This document shows positions 8,092 through 33,322 of a stretch of 35,524 bases of DNA, in pieces; the first letter of the stretch is position 1; each line of letters starts with the position of its first letter. This stretch comes from Candidatus Zipacnadia bacterium. GTDB lineage: Bacteria; Armatimonadota; Zipacnadia; Zipacnadales; Zipacnadaceae. The notes under the pieces are model-generated. The model made no database searches and was not told the DNA's origin. It saw nothing but the letters and a program-made list of their open reading frames with translations. Both the position numbers and the translations under genes were made by a program. The stretch lies in NCBI GenBank assembly GCA_029821195.1, contig JALGTU010000011.1, positions 1 through 35,524 on the forward strand, read 5' to 3'.

Positions 8092-9957
8092 ATGGTGGCT
8101 AAGCTCGACGAGCGAGAGGACCGTATGCACTTCACCTTGTTTGTGCTGTTGGCCGTCACCGGCTGCTTGTGCTTGGTGATGACGGGGGGATGGGCGGCGC
8201 CCCCTACCGGCCACATGCTCAGTATCATAGACGACTTCGGCGCGGTGGGCGACGGTGTCGCCGATGACACGGAGGCTCTGCAGGAGGCCTTCGATAGCAA
8301 AGAAGACGTCTACATACCGCAGGGTACCTACCGGTTTACCCGCACGCTACATATGGCGGGTCGGACCAAGGTTTATGGGCACGGGGGAGGATGGGATCGC
8401 CACGGGCAGACTACCCTTAAGTATGATGGACCGGAGGCGGAGACTGCGATCGTAGTGAAGAAGGCCCATTTCTTCCAGATGCGCAGAGTTCGCCTCGATG
8501 GCAGTAACAAGGCTGGCGTCGGCATCCATTGGGAAGCGACCTGGACAGCAGCTTTGCTGGAGGACGTCGCTATTACCGGGACCACCCAGCATGCCCTGTT
8601 TATGACGCGCACCTGGTGTGTCTCTTTCACTCGATTGGTGGTGCGTAACAATCGGGGCAACGGCGTGACCCTGTCGAGCCAGGCGGGCCCCGTCAATTCT
8701 GTAAACTTCATTGATTGCCGTTTCCTGCAGAATGGGCTGGACTACAAATACGATGGGGAGGGCAACTTCGCCGTCGGTTACGGCTTCGGTATCTTCAACG
8801 CCGGCACCGTCATAAACCTGACCGGGTGTCTGTTCGAGGTCAATGGCGGCGCGGGACTGTATCTGGAGGGCTGGATGGCTCAGATTCATGTCTCCGGCGG
8901 CTACTTTGAGCAGAACAGCCAGGGAGCAATTCACCGCGACCTGGAGACAAATGGCGAAGACGCGCTGGCCGACAAGCATCGCTCTTCCTGCGGCCGGTGG
9001 GCTTCAATTATCGAGAATTGCAGCTCCACTGCGTACGGTGTGGTCTTCGAGAACATATACATCCATGGCAAGAACGGCATCTGGCTGAAAGGTCGAGGTG
9101 GCCAAAGCTCGCCGATTCGCTTCCGCAATTGCCAGGGCAAAGTCCTGTACGCTGACCACGGAAACTGGGAGTGGATCGAGTCGCAGCCCCAGACGGAGGT
9201 TACCCGCCTGCCTGGTGTCATCTTCCGGCCTCAGGGTGAGGGCTATCAGTGGTGGGCCGGCGAAGGCCCTCCTTCGGGGCACCCGGGCCACCGTGTTGAC
9301 GGGGGCATTTGCTACGTGATGCCGGCGCCCGCAGAGGGCCTTGCCCTGTACGTGGACACTGACAAGGGGGACGACGCCAACGATGGGCGCGCGCCTGAGC
9401 AGGCCTGGCGGAGCTTGCAGAAGGTCGCGAACCTGTTCGCCAATACGCGCGTGACAACCCCTTTCACGGTCATTATCAGCGGCAGCGAAGTGGTTGATGC
9501 TGAGTTTGCCGACATTGACGGTCGGGGCACGATCACGATTCAAGCCCAGGGGCAGGCCCACCTGGGCCGCGTGCGCCTCAGCAACGTCACCTGTGGACTG
9601 CGCATCGCTGGTGGCGGGAAGATGACCATCGCGCAGTTGACGGCTGGCCGCTGCCAGGATGTGGAGTTAACCCGGGTGCCGTTCGCCGGCGGCTGCGAGG
9701 GCGAAAGCCGTTTGCTGGCCGAAGGCGCGAGCAATGTTGTTATCAGCCAGTGCCAGTTTGCCCCCAACGAACAGGGAACCACGGGGGGCGTGTGGGCGCG
9801 CGCCAACTCGCGCGTTTACGTGGAAAGCTCGAGCATCCAGGGTGTCGCGGCGGGAAGGGGAGTACGGGCCAGCAGCGGCGCGGAGGTCAAACTCAAGCGA
9901 GTGGAGAACAATGCCGGGGAGATGCTGGAAGGTGGAACGATCGAGCATCTCCACTAG
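8092..9957 (+). CDS. secreted beta-helix protein with pectate-lyase-3 domain, copy 1
   Basis: A 621-residue exported protein. A hydrophobic signal segment (about 13-35) is followed by the Pectate_lyase_3-type opening IIDDFGAVGDGVADDTEAL and PQGTYRFTRTL, typical of right-handed beta-helix polysaccharide-active enzymes and phage tailspikes. Repeating strand-turn patterns run to about residue 400. A second module then opens with LYVDTDKGDDANDG and SLQKVANLF, resembling the start of another parallel beta-helix. ATG 8092 is preferred because it places C25 and the following residues in exact register with the paralog at 10010; ATG 8125 has a slightly better ribosome site. The V22-T23-G24-C25 stretch could be a lipobox. 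The substrate and catalytic residues were not recognised. Confidence 0.85.
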   Translation: MVAKLDEREDRMHFTLFVLLAVTGCLCLVMTGGWAAPPTGHMLSIIDDFGAVGDGVADDTEALQEAFDSKEDVYIPQGTYRFTRTLHMAGRTKVYGHGGGWDRHGQTTLKYDGPEAETAIVVKKAHFFQMRRVRLDGSNKAGVGIHWEATWTAALLEDVAITGTTQHALFMTRTWCVSFTRLVVRNNRGNGVTLSSQAGPVNSVNFIDCRFLQNGLDYKYDGEGNFAVGYGFGIFNAGTVINLTGCLFEVNGGAGLYLEGWMAQIHVSGGYFEQNSQGAIHRDLETNGEDALADKHRSSCGRWASIIENCSSTAYGVVFENIYIHGKNGIWLKGRGGQSSPIRFRNCQGKVLYADHGNWEWIESQPQTEVTRLPGVIFRPQGEGYQWWAGEGPPSGHPGHRVDGGICYVMPAPAEGLALYVDTDKGDDANDGRAPEQAWRSLQKVANLFANTRVTTPFTVIISGSEVVDAEFADIDGRGTITIQAQGQAHLGRVRLSNVTCGLRIAGGGKMTIAQLTAGRCQDVELTRVPFAGGCEGESRLLAEGASNVVISQCQFAPNEQGTTGGVWARANSRVYVESSSIQGVAAGRGVRASSGAEVKLKRVENNAGEMLEGGTIEHLH

Positions 9958-10009
9958 TAGAGCACACTATCCGCCGAGTCAGCTTCATACGGTCTGAAGG
10001 AGGGAAAAG

Positions 10010-11878
10010 ATGAGTGGTTTACTGAACGGCAGTGACAATCATCCGATCCGCTGGGGGATGCTTGCAGTCGCGCTGGCGGGCTGTCTGCTTGTAGCCGTTG
10101 CAAACGGCGTTGCCGCAGGCCCTACCGGCCACATGCTCAATATCATAGACGACTTCGGTGCGGTCGGCGACGGCGAGGCCGATGATACCGAGGCGTTGCA
10201 GAAAGCCTTCGGCAGCAGAGGGGATGTCTATATCCCCGAGGGTACCTACCGGTTCACCAAGACCCTGGTGATGAGGGGCGGCACGAAGATTTATGGCCAC
10301 GGCGGCCACTGGAACCCGCAAGGGGCCACCACTCTGTTGTACGACGGCCCGGAGGGCGGCACCGCGATCAAGGCCAAGCAGGCGCACTTCTTCCAGATGC
10401 GCGGCGTGACTCTCAATGGCAATAATAAGGCGGGGATCGGCATCTACTGGGAGTATTCGTGCAATGAGGCGATGCTGGAAGACGTAGCAATCCGCCAGAC
10501 TACCGAGCACGCGCTGTTCATCACCAGGACCTGGTATGCCTACTTCAATCGCCTGGTAGTGCGCGACAATCTGGGCAACGGCGTGACCTGCTCGCGCAAG
10601 GTCGGCGCTGTCAACTACGTCAATTTCATCAACTGCCGCTTTTCCAGCAACGGGGAAGACTACACATACAGCGATGAGAACTTCGAGACTGGCTACGGCT
10701 TCGGATTCCTGGGCGCTGGTACTGTCTGCAACTTGATCGGCTGTTGCATGGAGGGCAACGGCGGGCCGGGGCTGTATCTGAAAGACTGGGCAGTCAACTT
10801 CACCGTCTCCGGTGCTTATTTCGAGCAGAATGCCCAGGCGCCGATCCGGCGGGACATCGAGCTTCACGGCAAGGACGTGCTGCTGAACAAGAACCGCCCG
10901 CCCACCGAGCGCTGGCCGTCCATCCTTACGAACCTGACAGGTGGCCAGTGGGGTGTCGTCTTCGACAATGTCTACATCCACGGCAAAAACGGCCTCTGGC
11001 TGAAGGGCAACGGTGCAGGCGATCCCCTCCAGTTCCGCAACGTGCACGGTCCGCCGATCATCTGGGCCGAGCACGGCAACTGGGAGTGGATTGACTCTTA
11101 CACCAAGACCCAGGTGGCCCGGCTGCCCGGCGTCTTCTTCCGGCCCAAGGGCCAGAGCTACCGGTGGTGGGCGGCTGAGGGTATTGCTTCCGGCCATCCT
11201 GGGCATAAGATTAACAGCGGCGTCCGCACGGTCTTTCCCGCCCCGGAAGAGGGCCTCACGCTCTATGTGGACAGCGACAACGGTGACGACGCCAACGACG
11301 GCCGCACACCCGAGCAGGCCTGGCAGAGCCTGCAGAAGGTGGCCGACCTATTCCGGAATTGTACGGTGGACACACCTTTCATGGTTGTGGTGACAGGTCA
11401 AGAGGCGGCTCACGCTGACTTCCTCGACATATCAGGAGCCGGGTCGGTGGAGATCAGGACACATGGGAGTGCTCGGTTGGGGGTGATAACGGCCAAGAAC
11501 GTTAGCTGTCGGCTCGGCATATCGAGCCGCGCCGTGGTGACTTTTCGGGCTGCGAGCGATGTCACCCCCCGGCTGGTGGCTCCAGACGGCGGCAGCATTA
11601 CCATCGACCAGTTGCGAGTTGACCGCTGCGCGCAGGTCACATTAGATGGGTTGACCTTCGCCGGCGGGTTCGGAGGCAACATGCGCCTGGCCTGTTTCGG
11701 GGGTAGCAACGTCAACGTTGCCGATTGCCATTTCGTGGGCAGCCTCGAGATGATTGGCGCGATCGTAGCGCGGGAGAATTGCCGAGTGTCGGTGGTCAAC
11801 AGCACGTTTGTGCGCGTACCCTCGGCTGGGCAGGAGTTGGTGGCAACCAGTGGCGCGGTGATCAAGACGGAGCAGTGA
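10010..11878 (+). CDS. secreted beta-helix protein with pectate-lyase-3 domain, copy 2
   Basis: A tandem paralog of the gene at 8092, 622 residues, with the same two-module layout. It has a signal segment, then NIIDDFGAVGDGEADDTEAL and PEGTYRFTKTL, a long beta-helix, and a second module opening LYVDSDNGDDANDG, with SLQKVADLF soon after. The similarity runs nearly end to end, so it arose by duplication. ATG 10010 has a strong GGAGGG ribosome site 7-8 bases upstream; the gap to copy 1 is 52 bases. L22-A23-G24-C25 is a good lipobox match, but hydrophobic residues continue after C25, and a signal peptidase I site near residues 35-37 is equally possible. It ends 5 bases from the convergent gene at 11884. 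Binding or cleaving a surface polysaccharide is inferred from the fold only. Confidence 0.86.
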   Translation: MSGLLNGSDNHPIRWGMLAVALAGCLLVAVANGVAAGPTGHMLNIIDDFGAVGDGEADDTEALQKAFGSRGDVYIPEGTYRFTKTLVMRGGTKIYGHGGHWNPQGATTLLYDGPEGGTAIKAKQAHFFQMRGVTLNGNNKAGIGIYWEYSCNEAMLEDVAIRQTTEHALFITRTWYAYFNRLVVRDNLGNGVTCSRKVGAVNYVNFINCRFSSNGEDYTYSDENFETGYGFGFLGAGTVCNLIGCCMEGNGGPGLYLKDWAVNFTVSGAYFEQNAQAPIRRDIELHGKDVLLNKNRPPTERWPSILTNLTGGQWGVVFDNVYIHGKNGLWLKGNGAGDPLQFRNVHGPPIIWAEHGNWEWIDSYTKTQVARLPGVFFRPKGQSYRWWAAEGIASGHPGHKINSGVRTVFPAPEEGLTLYVDSDNGDDANDGRTPEQAWQSLQKVADLFRNCTVDTPFMVVVTGQEAAHADFLDISGAGSVEIRTHGSARLGVITAKNVSCRLGISSRAVVTFRAASDVTPRLVAPDGGSITIDQLRVDRCAQVTLDGLTFAGGFGGNMRLACFGGSNVNVADCHFVGSLEMIGAIVARENCRVSVVNSTFVRVPSAGQELVATSGAVIKTEQ

Positions 11879-11883
11879 GGTGG

Positions 11884-12759
11884 CTACACTGCCGGGATTT
11901 CTTCGTCGGCGACCTCGGCGATCCAGGCCTTGGTCCAGTTCACCGCAGCCAGGTCCATATCGAGCAGCGTGGAGCCGAGGAACTGCATCCCCACGATACG
12001 CTTCTCTTGGGCCCACTTTAGCGCTAGCTCACACTGGTGCTGCATCAGTTCCACCGGTATGAGCTTGCCTCGGGGGTGTTTGCCGGTAGGATCCGCGCCG
12101 CCGAAGTCGTACATATACAACCCCAGGTTAATAGGCTTCCCCCCGGCCATTTCTTCCAGCTGCTCGAAGTTGCGCTCCAGCTCAGTAAGATCCTCGGCAA
12201 ACCAATGCCAGAAGGAGAGGACATCGAAAAGCGGCAGATAGTCGCTCAGCGGCCAGATCGGACCTTCGTAGCCGTAGATGTGCTGGGGTATGCCGGGGAA
12301 ATTGTGAGTATAGATGACGCCCCACAGCGAGTAGGGGTGAGGCCGGCTCTGAATGGCGTAGCGGATGTCCGCCAGGTATTGGGGCGTTGTCCGGCGATGG
12401 CGGATGATCTTGGAGAAATCATCCAGCATTACCCCCTCGATGTTGGGATGATTAGCGGCGAGCTTGTCTATCTTCTGGAGCGCGGCGGTGATAGCGTCTT
12501 GGTCGGCCGGGTCGCGGGAGATCCCCGCCGTCCACACCACGCGGTCAAACTCGTCCAGCCCTCGAGCTTCTTCCTCCTCCGGCCCGAGTGCGGCGGTGAT
12601 ATTGCGAATATTGGGGCTTAGGGCCTTCGTGCCGGAAGCCGGAGTCGAATCGGACTCGATACCCACCCAGGAGTCGTGGCAGTGCGTACGCAGCGCAAAA
12701 ACCCACATTATTTCGTGCAGCCGGCGGGTAGGGCGTTCATTTGGGGAATCGGTTGCCAT
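11884..12759 (-). CDS. TIM-barrel-like protein of unrecognised family, cytoplasmic paralog
   Basis: A 291-residue protein I do not recognise. It contains alternating strand/helix motifs typical of a TIM barrel, such as FDRVVWTAGI, NHPNIEGVMLDDFSKI, YSLWGVIYTH and KPINLGLYMYDFGG. The pattern of acidic residues at strand ends (LDDF, YDFG) resembles glycoside-hydrolase-type barrels, but no catalytic pair could be assigned. ATG 12759 is chosen for its AAGGAA ribosome site; no signal peptide follows, so it is predicted cytoplasmic. It is clearly paralogous along its whole length to the gene at 12808-13794, 48 bases upstream in the same direction. The pair faces the beta-helix pair, suggesting a shared carbohydrate-related job. 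Confidence 0.8.
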   Translation of the reverse strand: MATDSPNERPTRRLHEIMWVFALRTHCHDSWVGIESDSTPASGTKALSPNIRNITAALGPEEEEARGLDEFDRVVWTAGISRDPADQDAITAALQKIDKLAANHPNIEGVMLDDFSKIIRHRRTTPQYLADIRYAIQSRPHPYSLWGVIYTHNFPGIPQHIYGYEGPIWPLSDYLPLFDVLSFWHWFAEDLTELERNFEQLEEMAGGKPINLGLYMYDFGGADPTGKHPRGKLIPVELMQHQCELALKWAQEKRIVGMQFLGSTLLDMDLAAVNWTKAWIAEVADEEIPAV

Positions 12760-12807
12760 GATTGGTTCCTTCCCTGCAAACATCCAGAGTAAGCGGTTTG
12801 TGCCTGG

Positions 12808-13794
12808 TCAGATCGGCGGTATCTCCTCGTCGGCTACTTCGGCGATCCAGCTCTGGGTCCACTTGACCGCGTCCAGATCCATACCCAGCAGTGCGGTGCT
12901 CAGGAAGCTCATAGCCACGATGCGCTTCTCCTTGGCCCACTGCAGCGCCAACTCACACTGGTGCTTCATCCGCTCGACGGACATCAGTTCCGTGCTCTCG
13001 CCGTGGCCGAAGTTGTGCATGTATAGGCCCAGGCTGATCGGCTTGCCCCCCGCCATCTCCTCCAGGCGCTCGAAGTTCTGCTCCAGCTTGAGCACATCAG
13101 CGCTGCGGATCGTCCAGAAGGAAATGACATTGAATAGGTCCAGATACTCATTGAGGGGCCAGGTCGGGCCGTCGTAGCCGTACAGACCGGCCACCGGAAT
13201 GCCGTCGAGGTCCTTGTCGTAGATGACGCCCCACAGCGAGTAAGGGTGAGCGCGGCTCTGGATGGCGTAGCACACATCCGCCAGCAGCTTGGGCGAGGCC
13301 CTAAGGTGGCGGATAAGCTTCTCAAAGTCATCGAGCACCACGCCCTCGATGTTGGGGTGGTTTGCGGCCAGTTCGTCCATCACGTGGAGCCGGTCCAGGT
13401 AGTCGCCTGCGGCTGGGTCACGGGGAATTCCCAGCGACCAGACCACCCGGTCAAACTCGTCCAGTTCATGTGCCTGCTCTTCGTCGGGGCTGATCGCGGC
13501 AATAACGTTGCGAATCGTGCCGCCGCCCAGTTGCTTGGTGCCGGAAGCGGGCGACGTGGGAACCGTCGCAATGTCCGTATACCTCTGGTATATGAGGGGA
13601 CGTACAGCGAACGACCACATTATCTCTCTTAGGCGGCGGGCGGGGCGTTCGCCTGAGGCTGTTGGTGCCATGGCTGGCTCCTCCTGTGCAGAGGTTGGTT
13701 GAATATGCTCACTCAGGCCGAGGCCAAGCGTTGCTGCACCGGCACCAGTGGCCGTCTCAAGAAACCTGCGCCGGTTCATCCCGCTCTGGGTCAT
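12808..13794 (-). CDS. TIM-barrel-like protein of unrecognised family, Tat-signal paralog
   Basis: A 328-residue paralog of the preceding gene with an added N-terminus. Residues 8-14 read RRRFLET, followed by a hydrophobic, glycine/alanine-rich stretch, which is a Tat export signal for folded proteins. The mature part shares RRLREIMW, LDEFDRVVW, NHPNIEGVVLDDFEKL, YSLWGVIYD, YGYDGPTWPLNEYL and GGKPISLGLYM with the other copy. The full-length start at 13794 has a poor ribosome site. An internal in-frame ATG at 13671 has a near-ideal AGGAGGAG six bases upstream and would yield a signal-free protein starting exactly like the cytoplasmic paralog. Function is unknown; a folded, possibly cofactor-bearing exported enzyme is an inference. 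Confidence 0.83.
   Translation of the reverse strand: MTQSGMNRRRFLETATGAGAATLGLGLSEHIQPTSAQEEPAMAPTASGERPARRLREIMWSFAVRPLIYQRYTDIATVPTSPASGTKQLGGGTIRNVIAAISPDEEQAHELDEFDRVVWSLGIPRDPAAGDYLDRLHVMDELAANHPNIEGVVLDDFEKLIRHLRASPKLLADVCYAIQSRAHPYSLWGVIYDKDLDGIPVAGLYGYDGPTWPLNEYLDLFNVISFWTIRSADVLKLEQNFERLEEMAGGKPISLGLYMHNFGHGESTELMSVERMKHQCELALQWAKEKRIVAMSFLSTALLGMDLDAVKWTQSWIAEVADEEIPPI
13671..13685 (-). promoter_or_regulatory. strong internal ribosome binding site in the Tat-signal TIM-barrel gene
   Basis: On the minus strand, AGGAGGAG (13678-13685) sits six bases before the in-frame ATG at 13671. It is among the best Shine-Dalgarno matches in the window, while the annotated upstream start at 13794 has almost none. 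Use of this site would skip the Tat signal. Confidence 0.5.
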
Positions 13795-13901: not shown

Positions 13902-15488
13902 GTGACTGCACAAATGAGGGATCATCCGGCATATCGGTCGCACCTGCGCCTCCTGCTTGTGGTCTGCGGCGTGGTTCTGGCGACAGGTAGCACTGTCGCC
14001 TGGCTCGACCCGCTCCTGGAGCCCTACGATGCGGCCAACTACGTGGAGGTTGCGCGCAACCTGCTGGCCGGGAGGGGCCTGAGCAGTGAGGTAGTCGGCA
14101 ACTTCTACCGCCAGTACCCGGAGGTGTTTCACCCCGAAGACCGCCGCGCGTCGGCGTGGTCGGTCGTGCTGGCCGCAAGTATGCGGCTGCTGGGCGAGAC
14201 GCCGTTCGCTGCGACGCTGCCCAACATCTTTCTGGGCCTGCTGGTCGGGCCCCTGCTGGTATGGGCCCTGGCTCGGCGGCTGGGGCTGGCCCCGCTGGTG
14301 GGTCTTGCCGCCGCGCTGCTGTTTCTGACCTGGCCGCATTGGCTGCGGGCGTCACTGAGCGCCACTGCCGATGTGCTCTGCACTGATTTGGCCTTGCTGG
14401 CCCTGCTGCTGCTCATTGCCGCCCGCGACCGGCCGGTGCTAACGCTTGCTGCCGGGGCAGCGCTGGGGGTCGCTTACACCGTCAAGCCGGCAGCGCTGTT
14501 GCTGGTGGTGCCGCTGGCGGTCTTCTTCTGGCTGGATGCCTCAAAGTTAGCTCCCGGGCGGCGGCTGGGCTGGCTGGCCGCGCTGGCCGGCCTTGCCCTG
14601 GTCTTCGCCTCCCCTGTATTGGTACGCAACTACCTGATCTTCGGCAATCCGGCCTATTCCACCAATGTCTACACCGCCGGGCACATTGGCAGCGACGCTT
14701 CGGGCCGGGCGTTGATGCACGTATACTGGGGGGAGTCGCTCCCCTCGGTGGGCGAGTGGGCCAGGAACAAGGGCCTGCTGGGCGTGGCGGGCAAGGCTGG
14801 TGAGCAGCTCCGCCGGGCGGTCCTGGAGCTGTTCGTGCGTGGCCCGGGGATATTCTTCGTACTGCCAGCATTGTATATTGTACTAGTACAATCGTACACC
14901 CCTCGGCTGCGGCGGATGTGGGTGATCCTGCTGCTGTTTGTGCTGGAGCTGGCGGTCTTTTGGGTGATTCGGCCCCGGCTGCTGCTGGTGGTGGTACCGG
15001 TTATCACGCTCAGCGCGGCAGCGGGTGGGCTGATGATAGCCCAGCGCCTGGTGCGGCGATGCCGGTGGGCGACGGGAATTGTGCTGGCTGTGCTGATGCT
15101 GGTCGGGAGCTTGGGCGTGGGCGCTTACGGCGGGTGGCGCCTGGGATTGAGTGAGCCGCGAACGAGGATAGGACAGCACACCGATGCCGCTCGCTGGATA
15201 AAGGTGAATCTTCCGGGGGATGCGGTGGTGATGTCGCACTATCCGTATCTGGTGCGCTTCTATGGTGCGCGGGCCGCGGTGCAGATTCCGTTCGACGAGC
15301 TTTCCCGCATCAGGCAGGTTATCGAGCATTATGGCGTGGATACGCTGGTCGTGCCACGATATCTGCCGGCGGTGCGGTGGGCTGCGGGGCTGCCCAGAGA
15401 GCGGCTGCGGGAGCTTGCCCAGGAAGAGGGATGGGCGGGAGTTTACGAGAACCACGGGGTCTCGGTCTTTCATACCGAGCGTGACTGA
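13902..15488 (+). CDS. PMT/ArnT-like membrane glycosyltransferase
   Basis: A 528-residue polytopic membrane protein of the GT-C glycosyltransferase class (PMT_2 type), which transfers sugars from polyprenyl-phosphate donors on the outer face of the inner membrane. After the first membrane segment comes the acidic loop LDPLLEPYDAANYVEVARNLLAGRGL, typed here in parts: DPLLEPYD then YVEVARNLL. This is the usual DxxxY/N-L-L-x-G pattern of the family. Many hydrophobic segments run to about residue 410, then a soluble C-terminal domain. GTG 13902 is chosen because GGGAGAG precedes it; ATG 13914 is an alternative. It faces the exosortase cassette, with 15 bases between the stops. Acceptor and sugar are unknown. 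Confidence 0.85.
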   Translation: MTAQMRDHPAYRSHLRLLLVVCGVVLATGSTVAWLDPLLEPYDAANYVEVARNLLAGRGLSSEVVGNFYRQYPEVFHPEDRRASAWSVVLAASMRLLGETPFAATLPNIFLGLLVGPLLVWALARRLGLAPLVGLAAALLFLTWPHWLRASLSATADVLCTDLALLALLLLIAARDRPVLTLAAGAALGVAYTVKPAALLLVVPLAVFFWLDASKLAPGRRLGWLAALAGLALVFASPVLVRNYLIFGNPAYSTNVYTAGHIGSDASGRALMHVYWGESLPSVGEWARNKGLLGVAGKAGEQLRRAVLELFVRGPGIFFVLPALYIVLVQSYTPRLRRMWVILLLFVLELAVFWVIRPRLLLVVVPVITLSAAAGGLMIAQRLVRRCRWATGIVLAVLMLVGSLGVGAYGGWRLGLSEPRTRIGQHTDAARWIKVNLPGDAVVMSHYPYLVRFYGARAAVQIPFDELSRIRQVIEHYGVDTLVVPRYLPAVRWAAGLPRERLRELAQEEGWAGVYENHGVSVFHTERD

Positions 15489-17619: not shown

Positions 17620-19304
17620 CAGCTTTCCGATTCAGATGAATTCACTGGTGGGGCGCTTTCTGGGGGGCTGATCTCGAAAGGCGCCGTCGGTATCTTGCGG
17701 AACAGCACCCACGAACCATCACCAATCCGCTCCTGGACGACGAAGCCATAGCGGGGGAGTATGTCCCGGACAATGGCTTCGCGCCACATTTGCGCCCACT
17801 GGCGGGTCCGCTCGGCAGTTTCGTTGCGGGCTATGGCTGGCGTCAACAGCATCCAGGGGATCTGGCCGACCTTTTCCTGGATGCGTTTGAGGTCCTGGGG
17901 TGACTTCGGTATCCAGATGGAAACCATATCGTTATGCCATGCGGAGAGCCAGGGGACATCGCAGATGATCGGTTCGCCCCCCAACTCCTTGGCCTCGCGT
18001 GTCCAGGTAACGAATTGCTCCCGGGTGGTGGTTTCTCCCGGCCCGGGCCGGGTAGTCAGCGAGAACAGCATCGGAATAATCTGGGAGAGCAGCAGGACGC
18101 TCACGGCTAGGGTGGTGTAGCGTCGTTGTTCGCGCAATCCCAGATTCTGGACAATGGGCAGGAATACCCGGTAGAAGAAAGCGGCGGCGATCAAAGTGAC
18201 GATGGGCGCGAGCGGATACAACAAGCGGGGGTCCGCCATAACTACTATCAGGGCCAGAAATACCAGCACGAACATCCCGTACAGCAAGTACCGGAGCCTT
18301 TCGAAGTTTCGGGTGCCCAGGGGCACCAGGATAGCGACAACGAAGAAGGCAGTCACGTAGGCCCCGCCCACCTTCGGCAGAACGCCATAGAGGGTGGCGA
18401 CGCCAGTGCGGAACTTCTCGTATATCTCTACGGGGTGCTGAAGGGCGTAAGTGGGCAAGGGGGTGAGCTTTTCGGGGAACGAGCGGTACAGGGTCATGCC
18501 CGGATTGGTCCGGGTAGTCATGATGGTCTCATACCAGCGCCAGGTAAAGAAGGGATTACCGCTGACGTTGTACATCCGGTAGCACCATGGTGCTATGATG
18601 ACTAGGAAGACGACGACCAGAACGATCATAGCTTGGGCGCGTTGGCGGCGTTCGGAAACATAGTACAAGTATACCAGGATGGGAATGAGTATGATGGCCC
18701 ACAGGTACTTAGTCAGATAGATCAAGGCCAACAGGAGTCCGGCGGCGGCGGCGAGCAGCGGCCGGTATTCCCGGTGCTGTGCGTACTGGTATAGCACCAT
18801 AAGCAGACCGGTGACTAACAAGGCCAGCAGGTGCACTTCCAGCCCGGAGATGCTGTAGCCGAGCATAGCGATGTTGGTGACGTACAGGGCCACCGCCAGC
18901 CAGGCAACGCGGCTGTCGAAGAGCCACAGGGCAAATATCAAGATGAGCGGGATGGTGAGCAGGAAGGGAATGCCGCTGGCCAGAGCAACGGCGCGGTCGT
19001 TCATTCCCACGGTGTGCATAACCACCGAGATCAGCCAGGGATGGATGGGGGGATAGGTCAGGTCGGGATGACGCTCCAAGCTCAGTTGGCGTGTCAGGCT
19101 CAGCGGCTTGATGAAATTGGTGGTAAACCCTTCGCCCTGGGCGATGTTCCGGCCGATTTGGGCATAGTCCATGGCGTTGACGTCGGTGAGGCCTTTGAAC
19201 TGTCCGGCCATAAACACCAGGTACACAAATATCAGCGCCAACGCCAGCAGCAGATAGATAACGATCTGGGGTGCTCGCTCCTGCCAGGTCATATCTGCTC
19301 TCAT
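17619..19304 (-). CDS. PMT/ArnT-like membrane glycosyltransferase
   Basis: A 561-residue polytopic protein of the GT-C (PMT_2) class, first gene of the exosortase transcript. The first exported loop has the family pattern DVNAMDYAQIGRNIAQGEGF, then HPDLTYPPIHPWL. About ten hydrophobic segments follow to about residue 420, then a soluble domain. ATG 19304 is chosen over longer in-frame starts because GGAGGG lies about nine bases upstream and the preceding in-frame residues look non-coding (proline-rich, no helix). Its stop overlaps the zinc-ribbon start. It is similar in layout, though not closely in sequence, to the glycosyltransferase at 13902, so the cassette is flanked by two such enzymes. 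Donor and acceptor are unknown. Confidence 0.85.
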   Translation of the reverse strand: MRADMTWQERAPQIVIYLLLALALIFVYLVFMAGQFKGLTDVNAMDYAQIGRNIAQGEGFTTNFIKPLSLTRQLSLERHPDLTYPPIHPWLISVVMHTVGMNDRAVALASGIPFLLTIPLILIFALWLFDSRVAWLAVALYVTNIAMLGYSISGLEVHLLALLVTGLLMVLYQYAQHREYRPLLAAAAGLLLALIYLTKYLWAIILIPILVYLYYVSERRQRAQAMIVLVVVFLVIIAPWCYRMYNVSGNPFFTWRWYETIMTTRTNPGMTLYRSFPEKLTPLPTYALQHPVEIYEKFRTGVATLYGVLPKVGGAYVTAFFVVAILVPLGTRNFERLRYLLYGMFVLVFLALIVVMADPRLLYPLAPIVTLIAAAFFYRVFLPIVQNLGLREQRRYTTLAVSVLLLSQIIPMLFSLTTRPGPGETTTREQFVTWTREAKELGGEPIICDVPWLSAWHNDMVSIWIPKSPQDLKRIQEKVGQIPWMLLTPAIARNETAERTRQWAQMWREAIVRDILPRYGFVVQERIGDGSWVLFRKIPTAPFEISPPESAPPVNSSESES

Positions 19305-19441
19305 TAGTGCACCCTCCGGTAGGTCCCGGTTGCGGACTGGGGGTGGGGGTTGGAAGTCGGGCCCACCGACCGCAGCCCGGGCCAGACCCGAGCTGGTGTC
19401 GAACAGAATGAGACCGTTCTCGGGTGCTTTGATGCAAAACG

Positions 19442-19468
19442 CCCGCTTCCACACCCAGGAAAGCGGGG
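19442..19468 (-). terminator. rho-independent-like terminator after spoVS
   Basis: Read on the minus strand, CCCCGCTTTCC pairs with GGAAGCGGG around a 7-base loop, with one bulge, and is followed by CGTTTT. It sits about 50 bases after the spoVS stop and before the glycosyltransferase start, so it would end the recA/rny/spoVS transcript. Confidence 0.5.
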
Positions 19469-26785: not shown

Positions 26786-27289
26786 ATGCGAAGAGAGCCG
26801 GAGGCGAGCAATCAGGTGAGCATAGGAGTGCAGAAGGTCGCGGTTCCCGTGCGGGTGATGCCGGAAGCGGAAGGCCTGGAGCTGCCGCGATACGAGACAG
26901 CGCAGTCGGCGGGTATGGACCTGCGCGCGGCGCTCGCCGACCAAGGGCGACGGCAGGTCGTGATCGAGCCGGGGCAGCGGGCGCTAGTGAGCACGGGCCT
27001 GCGCATTGCCCTGCCGCCCGGTTTTGAAGCCCAGGTGCGGCCGCGCAGCGGGCTGGCGGTTAAGCACGGCGTAACGGTGGTCAACTCGCCGGGGACCATT
27101 GACGCGGACTATCGGGGTACCGTAAAGGTGGCCCTCATCAATCTGGGTGACGAGCCGTTTGTAGTAAAGCACGGCGAGCGCATCGCTCAGTTGATCATCG
27201 CGTCCGTGACCCGGGGCGAGTGGCAGGTAGTCACCGACCTGCCCGAGACCAGCCGCGGCACGGGTGGGTTCGGTTCGACCGGTCAGTAG
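26786..27289 (+). CDS. dut: deoxyuridine 5'-triphosphate nucleotidohydrolase (dUTPase)
   Basis: Hydrolyses dUTP to dUMP, keeping uracil out of DNA and supplying the dTMP route; active as a homotrimer in the cytoplasm. All five family motifs are present: [37 protein letters not shown] and the C-terminal arm [11 protein letters not shown]. Up to 167 residues are encoded from ATG 26786, which lies about eight bases after the -10 box and so would be nearly leaderless. GTG 26816, preceded by GGAGG at 26800-26804, is an alternative giving 157 residues, still longer than the usual 145-152. The uroporphyrinogen-decarboxylase-like gene follows after 31 bases. Confidence 0.96.
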
Positions 27290-27320
27290 TCGCCGTACCA
27301 GGCGAAGGTATAGATTATTC

Positions 27321-28397
27321 ATGCCCCTCTCCGAACGCGAAAACTACCTGCGTAATGCCACGATGGCCGGCCCGGAGTGGATGCCCTGTATGGTGGTAAT
27401 CTCCGGGGCGAGCCGCCGCCAGCTCGGCGAGGAGCTCGACGCGGTCCTGGCCCGTCACCCGATATTGCTTCCCTACCTCGTGCGTGGTGATCCTGATTGC
27501 GATGAGACGGAGTCTGGCCCGGCCAAGTCCGAGCGGTGGGTGCTTACCGATAACTGGGGATGCCAGTGGCGGAGCGCGATTGAGGGGCTCGAGGGCATTG
27601 CTGTCAATCCCCCGCTTGCGGACTGGACAGCCCTGGATAGCTATCAGGTTCCTGACCCGTTGGTGCAGGCTGATCGAGCTCCGGCCGACTGGGAGAAGAT
27701 CCGCCAGAATATCGAAGCGACCAGGAAGGCGGACAAGCCGGTTACTGGCGGGCTGGCGCACGGCCACCTGTTCATGCGGCTGTGTTACCTGCGCGGCTTC
27801 GAGAACATGATGATGGATATGGCGACCGATGAGCCGCGCCTCCAGCAGCTAATTGATATGATCGTTGGCCACAGCCGGGTGATCATTGACCAGTACCTGG
27901 CGATGGGTGTTGATGTGATGAATTTTCCCGAGGACCTGGGAACACAGACCGCGTCAATTATGGGTCCTAGAGCCTTTGCAAGATGGATTGCGCCGGCCTA
28001 CCGAAAGCTGATGGCGCCGTCTCACCAGGCGGGCGTGCTCGTTTATATGCACAGCGATGGCTACATCATGGATATCATGGACGAGATCCTGGCGTGTGGC
28101 GTGGACATCATCAATCCCCAGGACCTGGTCAATGGCATTGATAACCTCGCCGAGCAGGTTAAAGGGCGGGTGTGTATCAGCCTGGACGTGGATCGCCAGA
28201 GTATCGTGCCGTTTGGGAGCCGCTGGGAAATTCACGACCTGATCGAGGAAGAGGTCAGGAAGCTGGGTTCGCCGCGCGGCGGGCTGGAGCTGGTCGTGGG
28301 CATCTACCCGCCGACGCCGTCAGAGAATATTGACGCGGTCTGCGAGGCTCTTGAAGGCTTTCGCACCTACTGGTGGGATGGACGCGGCAACGACTAG
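27321..28397 (+). CDS. uroporphyrinogen decarboxylase-fold protein (methyltransferase-like)
   Basis: A 358-residue TIM-barrel protein of the URO-D superfamily (PF01208-like), which holds true UroD and corrinoid-dependent methyltransferases such as MtaA and CmuA. Visible segments are the entry helix PLSERENYLRNATMAG, NFPEDLGTQTASIMGP, VLVYMHSDGYIMDIMDEIL and GVDIINPQDL, and a late GLELVVGIYPPTPSENI. The methyltransferase zinc motif H-x-C is seen here as H-S-D, so classical thiol methylation is doubtful, and the UroD substrate arginines at the N-terminus are not evident. ATG 27321 follows a modest GAAGG. Divergent copies of this family are common in Armatimonadota and planctomycetes, often near sugar genes; the substrate is unknown. 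Confidence 0.8.
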   Translation: MPLSERENYLRNATMAGPEWMPCMVVISGASRRQLGEELDAVLARHPILLPYLVRGDPDCDETESGPAKSERWVLTDNWGCQWRSAIEGLEGIAVNPPLADWTALDSYQVPDPLVQADRAPADWEKIRQNIEATRKADKPVTGGLAHGHLFMRLCYLRGFENMMMDMATDEPRLQQLIDMIVGHSRVIIDQYLAMGVDVMNFPEDLGTQTASIMGPRAFARWIAPAYRKLMAPSHQAGVLVYMHSDGYIMDIMDEILACGVDIINPQDLVNGIDNLAEQVKGRVCISLDVDRQSIVPFGSRWEIHDLIEEEVRKLGSPRGGLELVVGIYPPTPSENIDAVCEALEGFRTYWWDGRGND

Positions 28398-28438
28398 GCA
28401 AGATCGTCAGTCTGGCGCTTAACAACAGGGCTGCACAT

Positions 28439-29953
28439 ATGCGTGTCAGGTGGATTCGCCGGATAGTACAACTGGCTGCGCTGTTTGGCTTCGGGTGGCT
28501 GCTTTACCAGTCGCGCTGGGTGCCCGGCGGGGAGATGCCCCCCCCGGTGTTCCTGCGTATGGATCCGCTGGTAGCGCTGACTGCCCTGCTCTCACGCGGG
28601 CCAGTTGTCCTGCGCTACATACTTGGCGGGCTTTTACTGCTGGTGCTGACTGTTATCTTCGGGCGCTTCTTCTGCGGCTGGCTCTGCCCCCTGGGTACTT
28701 GCATTGATATATCCGATACGCTGCTCTTCCGCCGGCGCAGCGGCGAGCGGTCGGGGTACAGTCGTCCTCGGTGGAAATACTACCTCCTGGCTGTGGTGCT
28801 GGTGGCGGCGCTGTTCGGTACGCAGATCGCGTGGCTTGTTGATCCGATGCCGCTGCTCGCCCGTACCGGCGCTGTGGTCATCTACCCGCTGAGCCTCGGC
28901 GCGTACAACTTGTTTGTTGACCTAAGTGGCCCGCTCTTGCGCCAGGTCGGAGTGCACCTGTACCCGACTGCGGTCTACCATTTCCACCTGGAGGTTGCTG
29001 TGGGCCTGGTATTCCTGGCGGTGCTGGGCATGAGCTTTTTCGCCCGGCGGATGTGGTGCCGGACCTTCTGCCCGCTGGGGGCGCTGCTCGCCTTGGTGGG
29101 GAAATTCGGTCTGTGGAAGCGATACGTTTCCGAGCAGTGCACGGGGTGCGGAATCTGCGCCGGCAAGTGCAAGATGGGAGCGATTCCCGGCGACGAGTGC
29201 ACTAAGACTCATACGCCTGAGTGCATCCTGTGCTACGACTGCATGGCCTGCCCCCGCGAGGGCGCCGTACACATCGGAATCCGCGCCGGCATGGCGGGTG
29301 GTGCGGACGCAGCCACGCGCACCAGCCGGCGGGCGTTCATGGCTGCAGCGGGTTCGGGGCTGGTCTACGGGCTGGCAACGAGGCTGGGCCAGCGCAACCG
29401 GGAGGTCCATCCCAAACTCATTCGGCCTCCCGGCGCGACTGTCCGCGAGGCTAGTGGGCTGCTGCGGCGGATGACCGAGAGCGAATTCCGCGACCTGTGC
29501 GTGCGTTGTGGCAACTGTATGCGCGCCTGCCCCACCGGCGGGCTTCAACCCGCACTCAGTCAAGCGGGGTTGGATGGGGCGTTTACGCCAGTGCTCGTCC
29601 CGGCAATTGGCTGGTGCGAGCAGCAGTGCAATGCGTGCAGCCGGGTTTGTCCGACCGGGGCACTGCGGCCCCATACCATCGAGGAGAAGGCGGATATCAA
29701 GCTGGGCCTGGCCTCAGTGGACACCGGCAGGTGCCTGTCGTGGCAGCAGGGCGACGACTACAAGCTCTGCCTGGTCTGCGTAGAGCATTGCCCGTATCAG
29801 GCGGTGGTCGCCGAGATGCACGAGGGACAACTGCGGCCCTTCGTGCTGCCTGACAAGTGCGTGGGCTGCGGGCAGTGCGAGTACAACTGCCCCGTCAGAG
29901 AGCCCGACAATCCGGTGGCGGCGATTACGGTGTCGCGTTTGCCGTCAGTGTAA
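28439..29953 (+). CDS. membrane polyferredoxin, NapH-like and NapG/MauM-like fusion
   Basis: A 504-residue electron-transfer protein. The first part is NapH-like: several membrane segments with two FCGWLCPLGTC / WCRTFCPLGAL loops (Fer4_5 type), then two [4Fe-4S] clusters starting CTGCGICAGKC and CILCYDCMAC. At residues 295-301 comes TSRRAFM followed by a hydrophobic stretch, a twin-arginine signal-like element in mid-protein. The second part is NapG/MauM-like, with four cysteine clusters (CVRCGNCMRAC, CEQQCNACSRVC, CLVCVEHC with a distant Cys, and CVGCGQCEYNC). ATG 28439 is used; AGGG precedes it. It probably moves electrons between the quinone pool and an exported redox partner. No oxidoreductase lies beside it in the window. 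Confidence 0.85.
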   Translation: MRVRWIRRIVQLAALFGFGWLLYQSRWVPGGEMPPPVFLRMDPLVALTALLSRGPVVLRYILGGLLLLVLTVIFGRFFCGWLCPLGTCIDISDTLLFRRRSGERSGYSRPRWKYYLLAVVLVAALFGTQIAWLVDPMPLLARTGAVVIYPLSLGAYNLFVDLSGPLLRQVGVHLYPTAVYHFHLEVAVGLVFLAVLGMSFFARRMWCRTFCPLGALLALVGKFGLWKRYVSEQCTGCGICAGKCKMGAIPGDECTKTHTPECILCYDCMACPREGAVHIGIRAGMAGGADAATRTSRRAFMAAAGSGLVYGLATRLGQRNREVHPKLIRPPGATVREASGLLRRMTESEFRDLCVRCGNCMRACPTGGLQPALSQAGLDGAFTPVLVPAIGWCEQQCNACSRVCPTGALRPHTIEEKADIKLGLASVDTGRCLSWQQGDDYKLCLVCVEHCPYQAVVAEMHEGQLRPFVLPDKCVGCGQCEYNCPVREPDNPVAAITVSRLPSV

Positions 29954-29995
29954 TCGTCCTGGGCCATCTCATAACCCGTGGGTTGCTTGTACCGC

Positions 29996-30032
29996 GGGCG
30001 GATGTTTCGCACACAACGCTCAACATTCGCCC
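29996..30032. repeat. imperfect palindrome, REP-like element
   Basis: GGGCGGATGTT (29996-30006) and AACATTCGCCC (30022-30032) form an 11-bp stem with one mismatch, followed by CTACA. The CGCCCCTACA ending resembles intergenic repeats seen in several uncultivated bacterial genomes; that comparison is from memory. Confidence 0.45.
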
Positions 30033-30094
30033 CTACAGACAGCGGGGCCGAGAGGGGAGGTGTTGATGAACTCAGCCCCCTGCCCCTCGGTTGT

Positions 30095-30115
30095 GGACAG
30101 GCGAGACGCCTGTCC
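30095..30115. repeat. perfect 9-bp palindrome, REP-like element
   Basis: GGACAGGCG (30095-30103) and CGCCTGTCC (30107-30115) form a perfect 9-bp stem with a 3-base loop. It could also serve as a transcription end for the convergent polyferredoxin and dprA genes, but it has no T-tract. Confidence 0.5.
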
Positions 30116-30128
30116 TACTGAAGCAGTT

Positions 30129-30150
30129 GCGACAGAGGTCTGGCTCCTAC
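30129..30150. repeat. short repeat shared with 26656-26706
   Basis: GCGACAG at 30129-30135 and GCTCCTAC at 30143-30150 match the outer half-sites of the element between the dut and cinA promoters. At 26656 the two halves are split by a palindrome; here only seven bases separate them. Confidence 0.4.
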
Positions 30151-30166
30151 GAAGTGAGTTGTTGCT

Positions 30167-31126
30167 TCACTCTCCGCCAAAGAGTTGCTGCTGGGACTCC
30201 TCGGCGTGATCGCGGTGCATCTGCTCGCGGTGGAAGTACAGGGCCCTTACCAGGGCTTCGATTTGCTCCGGGCCGTCAATCGGCTCAGCGCCTTCAGCCA
30301 GAAGCTGGGCAGGCCCGGCGCGCCTCTCCCCCATTTCCGGCCATTCTATCGTGCACACGAGCCGGCCCTGGCGGCGGGCCCGTTCCACGGTCTTCATGGC
30401 CCCGCCGGATTCTCCCGCTTCAATGACGATGACCGCGCGGGACAATCCGCTCTGCAGGCGGTTGCGGGCCATGAGTCGCCCCACGGCGGGATGAGCCGTA
30501 GGCGGCTGCTCGGAGATGACCGCGCCGTGTTCGGCGATACTGAGGGCCAATTCGAGGTTGGCGCGTGGGTGGATGACCAGGATTCCCGAGCCCAGCACGG
30601 CGATGGTGCGGCCGCCGCCATCCAGCGCGCCGTGGTGCGCCGCGGTATCGCAGCCCAGCGCCAGGCCGCTGACAACGGTGATTTTGTGCTCGGCCAACGC
30701 GGCCGCCACATCGTGCGCCATGCGGTAGCCCTCCTCGCTGGGGCGGCGCGTGCCGACGATGGCCACGGCCGGGTCGTCAATGGGGAGAATGCGGCCGGCG
30801 ATGCATAGCACGGGCGGCGGGTTGGGGGTATCGTGCAGAATCTCGGGATAGTCCGGCTCGAAGTCGCATACCACGCGGATGTTCTGGTCACCCAGGTTCC
30901 CGATCTGCTCTTCGACCTCGGCCAGCTTATCACCCAGCCCGGATATCGCAGCAATCTGCTCGGCGTTGAGTCGCAGGCTGGGCAGGGCCAATTCCTGCTG
31001 CGGAGCAGCGAGTATGGCAGGCGCATCGCCCAGGTGACCGACCAGGCGGCGGAACCCCGCCGGCCCGATCTCGCCGTGCCACATCAGAGCAATCTGCGCC
31101 AGCCGCTTGTCAGTCTCTGCGGACAT
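30167..31126 (-). CDS. dprA: DprA/Smf-like DNA-processing protein
   Basis: A 319-residue protein that would load RecA on incoming single-stranded DNA during transformation. The Rossmann-type DprA core carries AIVGTRRPSEEGYR, TVVSGLALGCDTAAHHGAL, GGGRTIAVLGSG and RLMARNRLQSGLSRAVIVIEAGESGGAMKTVERARRQGR, quoted here in pieces: RLMARNRLQSGLS, VIVIEAGESGGAM and TVERARRQGR. An N-terminal helical region (about 1-90) precedes it. The C-terminal winged-helix domain found in many DprA proteins is missing, so the chain ends shortly after the core. ATG 31126 has GAGGGA seven bases upstream. It follows the GH127-like gene after 20 bases, an odd partner probably sharing its transcript. Confidence 0.88.
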   Translation of the reverse strand: MSAETDKRLAQIALMWHGEIGPAGFRRLVGHLGDAPAILAAPQQELALPSLRLNAEQIAAISGLGDKLAEVEEQIGNLGDQNIRVVCDFEPDYPEILHDTPNPPPVLCIAGRILPIDDPAVAIVGTRRPSEEGYRMAHDVAAALAEHKITVVSGLALGCDTAAHHGALDGGGRTIAVLGSGILVIHPRANLELALSIAEHGAVISEQPPTAHPAVGRLMARNRLQSGLSRAVIVIEAGESGGAMKTVERARRQGRLVCTIEWPEMGERRAGPAQLLAEGAEPIDGPEQIEALVRALYFHREQMHRDHAEESQQQLFGGE

Positions 31127-31146
31127 AGCTCAGTCCCTCACGCTTC

Positions 31147-33099
31147 TCAGCTACCCTCGAGTTGGGGGAACTCTGCGATTCGCAAATTGGTGGAGCCGTA
31201 AGGGACCAGGGTCACCTCTTCGTCTGGTTCGTTTGAGCTGGCCGGACTCTCCGGGGGTGGGGCGGCGGAGTTGTGATAGAGCGTCCAGTCCGGCAGCCGC
31301 CGACCCGTGGCTCGCATCCGGATAGGCGCGGCCTCGGGATCGAACGGTTGATAGGACATACCCGTCTCGGTGACCTCGACGCACTCGTCCGGGGCATCTT
31401 CATCCACTACCAGCCCGTAGTTCCAGGGGGTGGTGGGGAAGATTTCTCGCTGGGGCAGCGGGCCCTGGCCGATAACCCGAATGCGCTCGCCGATCTTCAG
31501 CCCGTACACCAGCGGCCCGCGTTCGATGCCCAGGGAGTTGCTGTACCAGCGCGAGAGGTGCACCTTCATCGGCAGGTGGAGCGTGAGCATGTCACCGTCG
31601 TGCCACTCGCGCTCAATGGCGTGGAAGCTGCCGGGCTTCAGCCCGGTGAACTGTTCATGGCTGATTTGTGCGGAAGCGTCCTCGCACCAGCCAGGGATGC
31701 GCAGCTTCAGTCCGAAGCGCACCGGCTCAGCGGCCTGGACGGTGAAGCGGATCGTCTCCGAGAAGGGGTACTCGGTGTCCTCGATGATGGTGACACTGAT
31801 CCCACCGGCGACCTCGGCGGTCACCTGGCAGGGACCGTAGACGACTGCCGCCAACCCGCCGTCGGGGGTCGCCATCCACATATGCTTCACGAACTTGGGC
31901 CAGCCCTGGTGCATATTGGCACTGCAACAGCGGAACATGTGCGGCGCGTAGCTGAAGATGTTGGAGGTGTCACCGTTGTTGGCCCAGTCGCGCTTGGCGA
32001 TGGTGCACAGGACCTGGTTGGCCTGTTGGTCGTACTGGTGGCCGAGCCAGTCGGGCATAATGGTGGCGGGCAGGGCGTTGTAGGCGAGGCGTTCGAGGCG
32101 GTCGCCCAGCGTCGGCTCGCCGAAGATGCGCAAGAGGTGCTCGAGGCTGAACATAAACTCGACCACCGCGCACAGCTCGGTGCCGTGGGTGGGACTGTTG
32201 CCGATGATATGCTCGTCACCGGTGAAGATGCCCGGGACGACGCCGTTGTACTTGAGCAGCTTGGCGATCCCCTCCAGGGAGGCGGTGCGATGCTTGTTAT
32301 CGTGCGACTGCTGCCACCAGACGCCGGGGTTTTTGGTGCCCATCGCAATGTTGACCACGTGCGTCTTCCAGTAAACTTCCGGGGCCGGATTGAAAGCAGT
32401 GATATTGTGGTACATAAACTGCTCGCCAAGCTGCGCGGTCCAGTTCATGCCCTGGTCAAAGATCTTCTGGGCCAGGTCGAGCAGGAAGCCTTCGCCGGTG
32501 CGGTTGTACAGCCAGTAAATACTTAACAGATTCTCCGCGCAGCGCACCTGGGCCCACCGGTACAGCGGCTGCTCGTCGAGGCCGGTCATCTGGAAGGAGA
32601 AGTACCGGAGCATAAAGGGGATGATCCGTTCGTCGCCACTGACCTCTTGGTATTGACTGAGCACTTTGAGCATAATCATCCGCTGCCACCAATCGGTGAT
32701 CGTCCCCTGCGGCTTAGGCACGAATGCGGGAGCGCGTTGCTCCTGCGGGCCGAAGAGTCCGTTGGGATTTTGGCTGCGCAGCGTCCAGTCTACGAAGGCG
32801 TGAACGTGGTCGAGCAGCGCGGTGTCCTGAAGCAGGTGAGCGAGGGGCAGCGCGCCGTCGCAGTAGTAGGGGCCGACTTCCCAGGCCTCACCGCTGCCGC
32901 CGAGCCAGCCGCTGTTGTTGCCGACGTAATCGGGCCAGATGTCCGGGAGGCGGCCGGTGAGCCCATCGCGCTGGATCTTAAGCTGGTTCTCCAGCCATCC
33001 CCGTGGACGAACGGCGCCCAGGGGCAGGGCGATGAAGGCGGTGGGCGCCAGGGGCGGGCGGTTGGGAAACCCGGCTGAGCTGGTGATGTCATCGTTCAT
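31147..33099 (-). CDS. GH127-type beta-L-arabinofuranosidase-like protein (DUF1680)
   Basis: A 650-residue glycoside hydrolase of the GH127/DUF1680 family, with an alpha/alpha toroid catalytic domain and C-terminal beta-sandwiches. In the studied bifidobacterial enzyme a zinc-bound cysteine acts as nucleophile; the matching residues are seen here as E-x-C in THGTELCAVVEF and the C-C pair in MFRCCSANMHQGWP. LPLGAVRPRGWLENQL near the N-terminus and GIERGPLVYGL near the C-terminus are further family hallmarks. ATG 33099 (or adjacent 33102) follows GGGGGAG at five bases. No signal peptide is present, so it should act on imported oligosaccharides in the cytoplasm. The exact sugar is not certain. 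Confidence 0.9.
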   Translation of the reverse strand: MNDDITSSAGFPNRPPLAPTAFIALPLGAVRPRGWLENQLKIQRDGLTGRLPDIWPDYVGNNSGWLGGSGEAWEVGPYYCDGALPLAHLLQDTALLDHVHAFVDWTLRSQNPNGLFGPQEQRAPAFVPKPQGTITDWWQRMIMLKVLSQYQEVSGDERIIPFMLRYFSFQMTGLDEQPLYRWAQVRCAENLLSIYWLYNRTGEGFLLDLAQKIFDQGMNWTAQLGEQFMYHNITAFNPAPEVYWKTHVVNIAMGTKNPGVWWQQSHDNKHRTASLEGIAKLLKYNGVVPGIFTGDEHIIGNSPTHGTELCAVVEFMFSLEHLLRIFGEPTLGDRLERLAYNALPATIMPDWLGHQYDQQANQVLCTIAKRDWANNGDTSNIFSYAPHMFRCCSANMHQGWPKFVKHMWMATPDGGLAAVVYGPCQVTAEVAGGISVTIIEDTEYPFSETIRFTVQAAEPVRFGLKLRIPGWCEDASAQISHEQFTGLKPGSFHAIEREWHDGDMLTLHLPMKVHLSRWYSNSLGIERGPLVYGLKIGERIRVIGQGPLPQREIFPTTPWNYGLVVDEDAPDECVEVTETGMSYQPFDPEAAPIRMRATGRRLPDWTLYHNSAAPPPESPASSNEPDEEVTLVPYGSTNLRIAEFPQLEGS

Positions 33100-33322
33100 C
33101 ATTGCTCCCCCTTGGTGCGGATCTTGCTGAGCGTGGAAAGCAAACTTGTGGCGTGTGAAGGGCCTGTTCGCGCTTTCGTGCCAATCTCCTCCCAAGAGAG
33201 CGCGTATGCGGGTGGGTGGCGGCGGCGCGCTCTTGCGCTAGGGAGGCTAGAATTGTACAATATGGGACGATCAAAGCCGCGTACTTGTGCGCTCCCCCTC
33301 AGGTATCAGGAGAGTTTGTCTT
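33100..33322. other. divergent intergenic region between GH127 and permease
   Basis: It contains a plus-strand promoter at 33233-33261 and the ribosome sites of both flanking genes. No minus-strand promoter with good spacing was recognised for the GH127 gene. Confidence 0.4.
33233..33261 (+). promoter_or_regulatory. sigma-70-type promoter for the permease
   Basis: TTGCGC (33233-33238) and TACAAT (33256-33261) lie 17 bases apart, leaving a leader of about 55 bases before ATG 33323. Confidence 0.5.

Follow-up and report, generated by a model that had tools for sequence, protein, structure and literature searches.

Glycoside hydrolase families GH18 and GH84 are substrate-assisted glycosidases, of the chitinase type and of the O-GlcNAcase/NagJ type, respectively, and in barrels such as theirs the active site usually lies on the side formed by the C-terminal ends of the strands. 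GH84 (PF07555) is a barrel with an adjacent Asp-Asp pair past strand 4, a tyrosine past strand 5 and a DVxxFWT motif on strand 6, all of which it has in common with the proteins described here. In CpOGA its active site comprises Asp297-Asp298, Tyr335, Trp394, Asn396 and Asp401 (PMC2828546). GH18 (PF00704), likewise a barrel, bears a DGhDhD-like region at strand 4 and draws its catalytic glutamate from the motif DxxDxDxE. Here we describe a pair of bacterial genes whose products recall both families. Our best reading, held with a little over even confidence, is that they belong to an undescribed glycosidase-like barrel family which occurs in carbohydrate-rich neighbourhoods and has no dedicated partnership with beta-helix proteins.

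The window, that is, the whole stretch of 35,524 nucleotides that was analysed, belongs to a 3.0 Mb MAG of an uncultured Armatimonadota bacterium. An earlier note on this DNA had described two tandem beta-helix genes on the plus strand facing two tandem TIM-barrel-like genes on the minus strand, with 5 bases between the stops, and all four frames were found as it had described them (Table 1). It had also held that both pairs kept full-length copies, which agrees with the intact frames and with codon changes that fall mostly at position 3. The differences at position 3 against position 2 were 0.55 against 0.26 in the beta-helix pair and 0.49 against 0.19 in the barrel pair, and since they are concentrated at position 3, it appears that no copy in either pair has been left to decay. 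The barrel genes share a strand, the Tat copy being the first, and the frame of the 291-aa protein is open up to an alternative ATG at 12783, the gap between the two genes being 24-48 bases depending on the start chosen. From this layout co-transcription of the two genes appears likely; a scan for promoters and terminators gave signals not in excess of shuffles. Beyond the Tat copy, a plus-strand PMT_2 glycosyltransferase gene (13914-15485) has a listed start at 13662 that overlaps the 5' end of the Tat copy; its true start probably lies downstream, near 13914, which would leave a short divergent intergenic region. This gene and a second PMT_2 glycosyltransferase gene (17622-19454, minus strand) stand on either side of an exosortase gene (EpsH, PF09721; 15507-17068, minus strand) and the adjoining gene for a DUF3485 (EpsI-type) protein. 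At 27264-33195 the window further encodes a URO-D protein, a polyferredoxin-like protein and a GH127 beta-L-arabinofuranosidase-like protein.

Table 1. Positions in the window of the two facing gene pairs and of selected codons in the barrel genes.
Feature	Position	Strand	Remarks
Beta-helix paralog 1, 621 aa	8092..9957	+	N-terminal hydrophobic segment; Pect-lyase_RHGA_epim and Beta_helix
Beta-helix paralog 2, 622 aa	10010..11878	+	56% identity to paralog 1
Spacer between convergent stop codons	11879..11883		5 bases
Barrel paralog, 291 aa	11884..12759	-	No recognisable signal peptide; all near-invariant residues examined retained
D218 codon, 291-aa barrel	12106..12108	-	Loop after strand beta-7; 60/61
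Y150 codon, 291-aa barrel	12310..12312	-	End of strand beta-5; 61/61
D113-D114 codons, 291-aa barrel	12418..12423	-	Directly after strand beta-4; 61/61 and 61/61
Barrel paralog with Tat signal, 328 aa	12808..13794	-	First gene of the minus-strand pair; TIGR01409
N261 codon, Tat copy	13012..13014	-	D218 equivalent; Asp in 60/61 members
I229 codon, Tat copy	13108..13110	-	W186 equivalent; Trp in 53/61 members

The two barrel proteins are 61.3% identical (BLASTP E = 2e-123). Neither matched any entry in Pfam, NCBIfam or the PDB sequences; a Pfam search with 25 members of the family and a search of the PDB sequences with the barrel profile still returned no match, and a literature search on the family found nothing. 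The earlier note, which had recognised no name for the family, was thus borne out, and so was its assignment of a TIM-barrel-like fold by the structure prediction that it had asked for: AlphaFold (AF2) produced for the 291-aa protein a confident (beta/alpha)8 barrel with a mean pLDDT of 87.6 and a pTM of 0.88. When this model was compared with the PDB by Foldseek, the best matches included GH17, GH99 and GH18 glycosidases at TM ~0.5, together with aldolases, HisF and other non-glycosidase barrels at similar scores, and a viral structure library yielded generic barrels only. With TM values of ~0.5 and such a mixture of barrel classes, the fold alone reads as 'barrel, perhaps glycosidase-like' and nothing further.

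Throughout the family D113, D114 and Y150 are invariant (61/61 members each), and W19 (60/60), Y215 (60/61), D218 (60/61) and W184 (55/61) are highly conserved. DSSP applied to the predicted barrel placed W184 at the end of strand 6 and Y215 and D218 after strand 7, and D113, D114, Y150, Y215 and D218 all lie at or just past C-terminal strand ends. We propose that the proteins most likely cleave glycosides, both the catalysis and the glycoside substrate being part of the proposal, and that their putative active site, on the C-terminal face of the barrel, is made up of the Asp-Asp pair past strand 4, the tyrosine past strand 5 and the Tyr/Asp residues past strand 7. The Asp pair may supply the central acid groups that do the chemistry, broadly as in the retaining glycosidases of GH18 and GH84.

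Kinship with described families was examined with comparison alignments of GH84, GH18, GH20 and AP_endonuc_2 drawn from Armatimonadota genomes, which were run against the barrel profile in hhalign. Of the five families compared, GH18 gave the highest value (score 40.5, P 6e-5, prob 65%). GH84, which had been chosen for the already noticed Asp-Asp motif, so that this test of kinship is not blind, scored 34.6 (P 5e-4, prob 32%; 24% in a first comparison). URO-D, represented by a nine-hit alignment, was intermediate (27.6, prob 6%), higher than any shuffle of the other families had scored, and GH20 (20.7) and AP_endonuc_2 (20.5, prob 1%) both fell inside their own shuffles. Across 150 column shuffles the scores peaked at 23-24 and so stayed below those of both GH18 and GH84, and reversed profiles scored 10-16. 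Kinship with GH20 and with the xylose-isomerase-like AP_endonuc_2 barrels was dropped on account of these background-level scores, and GH114 (PF03537), considered for its strand-4 motif, offered too small a set to build a profile test on, with just three weak members across 81 genomes.

In the GH84 alignment the two DD pairs coincide, as do the two tyrosines, and DVxxFWTW stands opposite DVxxFWTG. Asp297-Asp298 of CpOGA thereby find their counterpart in the DD of all 61 members, and Tyr335 finds its own in Y150 (61/61), an equivalence by motif order and not by superposition. The W-x-N-x4-D motif of GH84 (Trp394, Asn396, Asp401), however, has no counterpart in the aligned segment LGLYMYDF, and PF07555 was not among the Pfam matches of the 25 members at E <= 1. 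As these other active-site residues are missing, the barrel family is not GH84. In the comparison with GH18 the strand 4 region aligned with IEGVMLDDF, but the place of the catalytic glutamate, position F115, is occupied by F, M, T, L, A or Y and never by Glu in the 61 members, and PF00704 gave no match above the cut-off in the 25 members searched.

The two window copies have probably diverged in role, judging from the predicted export of one of them and its two altered active-face residues. For the first copy, whose TIGR01409 score is above the cut-off, export by Tat is predicted; the other has no recognisable signal peptide and keeps all the residues examined. The exported copy has Asn in place of D218 and Ile in place of W186, and its branch is about double that of its sister (0.47 vs 0.22), so that its activity may be changed or lost. 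These same substitutions and the long branch would suit a non-catalytic, carbohydrate-binding barrel, whether that describes the whole family or the Tat copy at least; yet this copy retains the Asp-Asp pair and the equivalents of Y150 and W184, its codon changes are of the purifying type, and we take such a role to be most improbable. The case for a cytoplasmic metabolic enzyme of some other class (isomerase, aldolase, epimerase or URO-D-like) acting in sugar or sugar-acid breakdown draws on other evidence. In a crude test a signal peptide was not evident for the majority of members, which is a poor fit to polymer degradation, the non-glycosidase barrels score as well in Foldseek, and the URO-D score in hhalign exceeds the shuffle maxima noted above. 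Among 169 neighbour proteins within 2 kb of barrel genes, moreover, the commonest Pfam domains were URO-D (9) and Gfo/Idh/MocA (9), followed by sulfatase (5), carboxylesterase (4) and 3keto-disac_hyd or BNR types, with GH29 and GH123 also present and xylose isomerase-like or enolase-type proteins in some places. Against a metabolic enzyme stand the lack of profile similarity to xylose-isomerase-like barrels, the conserved Asp, Tyr and Trp residues, which form no recognisable metal or phosphate motif, the secreted members, and the fusions to BNR_2 (sialidase-like) and 3keto-disac_hyd domains in L094 and L098, two members examined; we consider it rather unlikely. Taken together, the neighbours suggest, loosely speaking, a setting of sugar breakdown, and they are heterogeneous and give no pointer to a substrate. 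The earlier note had thought of a surface polysaccharide; a role with carbohydrates does remain the best reading from fold, fusions and neighbours, but nothing points to a surface polysaccharide.

The plus-strand proteins are, by Pfam score, ordinary members of PF12708 (Pect-lyase_RHGA_epim; 50.5 and 51.6 bits, gathering score 27) and PF13229 (Beta_helix; 51.3 and 28.9 bits, gathering score 25.9). They share 55.8% identity over aligned residues (BLASTP E = 0.0) and have no more than weak matches in NCBIfam and among the PDB sequences. An AF2 model from four sequences was moderate (mean pLDDT 67.2) and good in its first half; it resembles right-handed beta-helix proteins, its best PDB neighbours being tailspikes, AlgE epimerases, GH55 and GH87 enzymes and the lyase RbmB. 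Unlike other proteins with these domains, they form a full-length subfamily with a C-terminal half of its own, seen in the host and in none of the other 250 of the 251 Armatimonadota genomes sampled; the remaining matches listed extended over little more than the motif at the N-terminus or some short segment. The host has four copies: the two in the window and a single one on each of contigs C177 and C125. A third copy, from a different contig, is 52.5-55.3% identical to the window copies, and the tree of the three forks without resolution. With this copy about equally close and the fork open, a local duplication of the window pair is possible only. Local duplication, which the earlier note had claimed for both families, therefore stands for the barrel genes, sisters in the tree with support of 100/100, and not for the beta-helix genes. 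Near the two beta-helix copies outside the window we noticed a DUF4838 protein with GH67N and a CBM9-like protein. Probably these beta-helix proteins are secreted and carbohydrate-active or carbohydrate-binding, their family being spread over the genome.

From the parallel pairs the earlier note had suggested that the two families are matched partners acting on two related substrates, and had proposed that their co-occurrence and co-duplication be checked. Spelled out, one beta-helix and one barrel protein would work jointly on each of two related polysaccharides, both pairs having been duplicated in parallel. Apart from the convergent adjacency and the two full-length copies per family, this idea can call upon a contig of the same genus (L088, 1666-14535), where four barrel genes stand among DUF4838, BNR/3keto-disac_hyd, dihydrodipicolinate-synthase-like (by eye) and NosD-type beta-helix genes, two of them with a beta-helix protein directly alongside, and upon a weak enrichment. 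About 4 beta-helix neighbours (three including L096 and L102, plus L088) were counted in ~272 kb of neighbour genes against ~1 expected from 433 PF13229 matches in ~116 Mb (summed by hand), with a Poisson P of ~0.02, worked out by hand and uncorrected. Common sugar neighbourhoods can account for this association, and the L088 beta-helix is of an unrelated, NosD-like type. The barrel and full-length beta-helix families rarely occur together across the 251 genomes; for beta-helix genes of any kind, co-occurrence at genome level carries no information, 25/26 genomes having such genes. Co-duplication did not hold up, as the full-length subfamily is confined to the host and has four copies there against two barrels, the order of its duplications is not resolved by the tree, and the two other copies had no barrel gene within the stretches read. 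Independent tandem duplications of barrel genes, in L139/L140 and in two of the four L088 copies, came without a duplicated beta-helix gene beside them; they look like a habit of the family for which no beta-helix partner is needed. Matched partnership thus appears quite improbable, and the placement of the beta-helix genes opposite the barrels probably reflects a common sugar-degradation neighbourhood and not a dedicated two-by-two system, the gene arrangement in itself being of little importance.

The barrel family reaches well beyond the window. Its profile matched 46 of the 251 Armatimonadota genomes at E <= 0.001, several of these matches being weak and partial and to more distant relatives, and a single window barrel protein as query matched 36 of the 251. 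In the species collection, loci were also found in Latescibacterota, Planctomycetota, Kiritimatiellota, Clostridia and Chloroflexi/Chloroflexota, and among the named relatives with the family are records of Candidatus Zipacnadia and of candidate division WS1. Two genomes placed in the host's genus or family carry the same contigs (G211 with L038/L040, G116 with L049), so that the host is probably a member of this group. For a degenerate search the 25-row alignment gave no conserved stretch, and 9 rows were used on repeat. Two short frames that match only the DD part of the profile (G000:C131:7303-7434, 67 aa; G059:C20:262578-262676, 62 aa) are possibly gene remnants. More distant relatives (L104, L105 and L108-L119) match the profile weakly but significantly over the DD region (E 1e-7 to 1e-20); they show lower similarity and different architectures, some being fused to GH42M-like or Laminin_G_3 domains, and, like the barrel family, have no Pfam domain over the matched part.

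If its members are enzymes, this is a carbohydrate-active family wholly missed by the curated libraries searched, across several phyla, and at about 270-290 aa it presents a clear and small target. As far as sequence profiles of moderate signal go, it resembles GH18 and GH84 and belongs to neither. That it constitutes a novel family of glycoside hydrolases, with a wide distribution among uncultured bacteria and no curated model so far, is a serious possibility to which we give somewhat less than even confidence; such a family would carry the Asp-Asp pair in an otherwise non-GH84 site, with the L104-L119 relatives perhaps forming a new branch of the superfamily.
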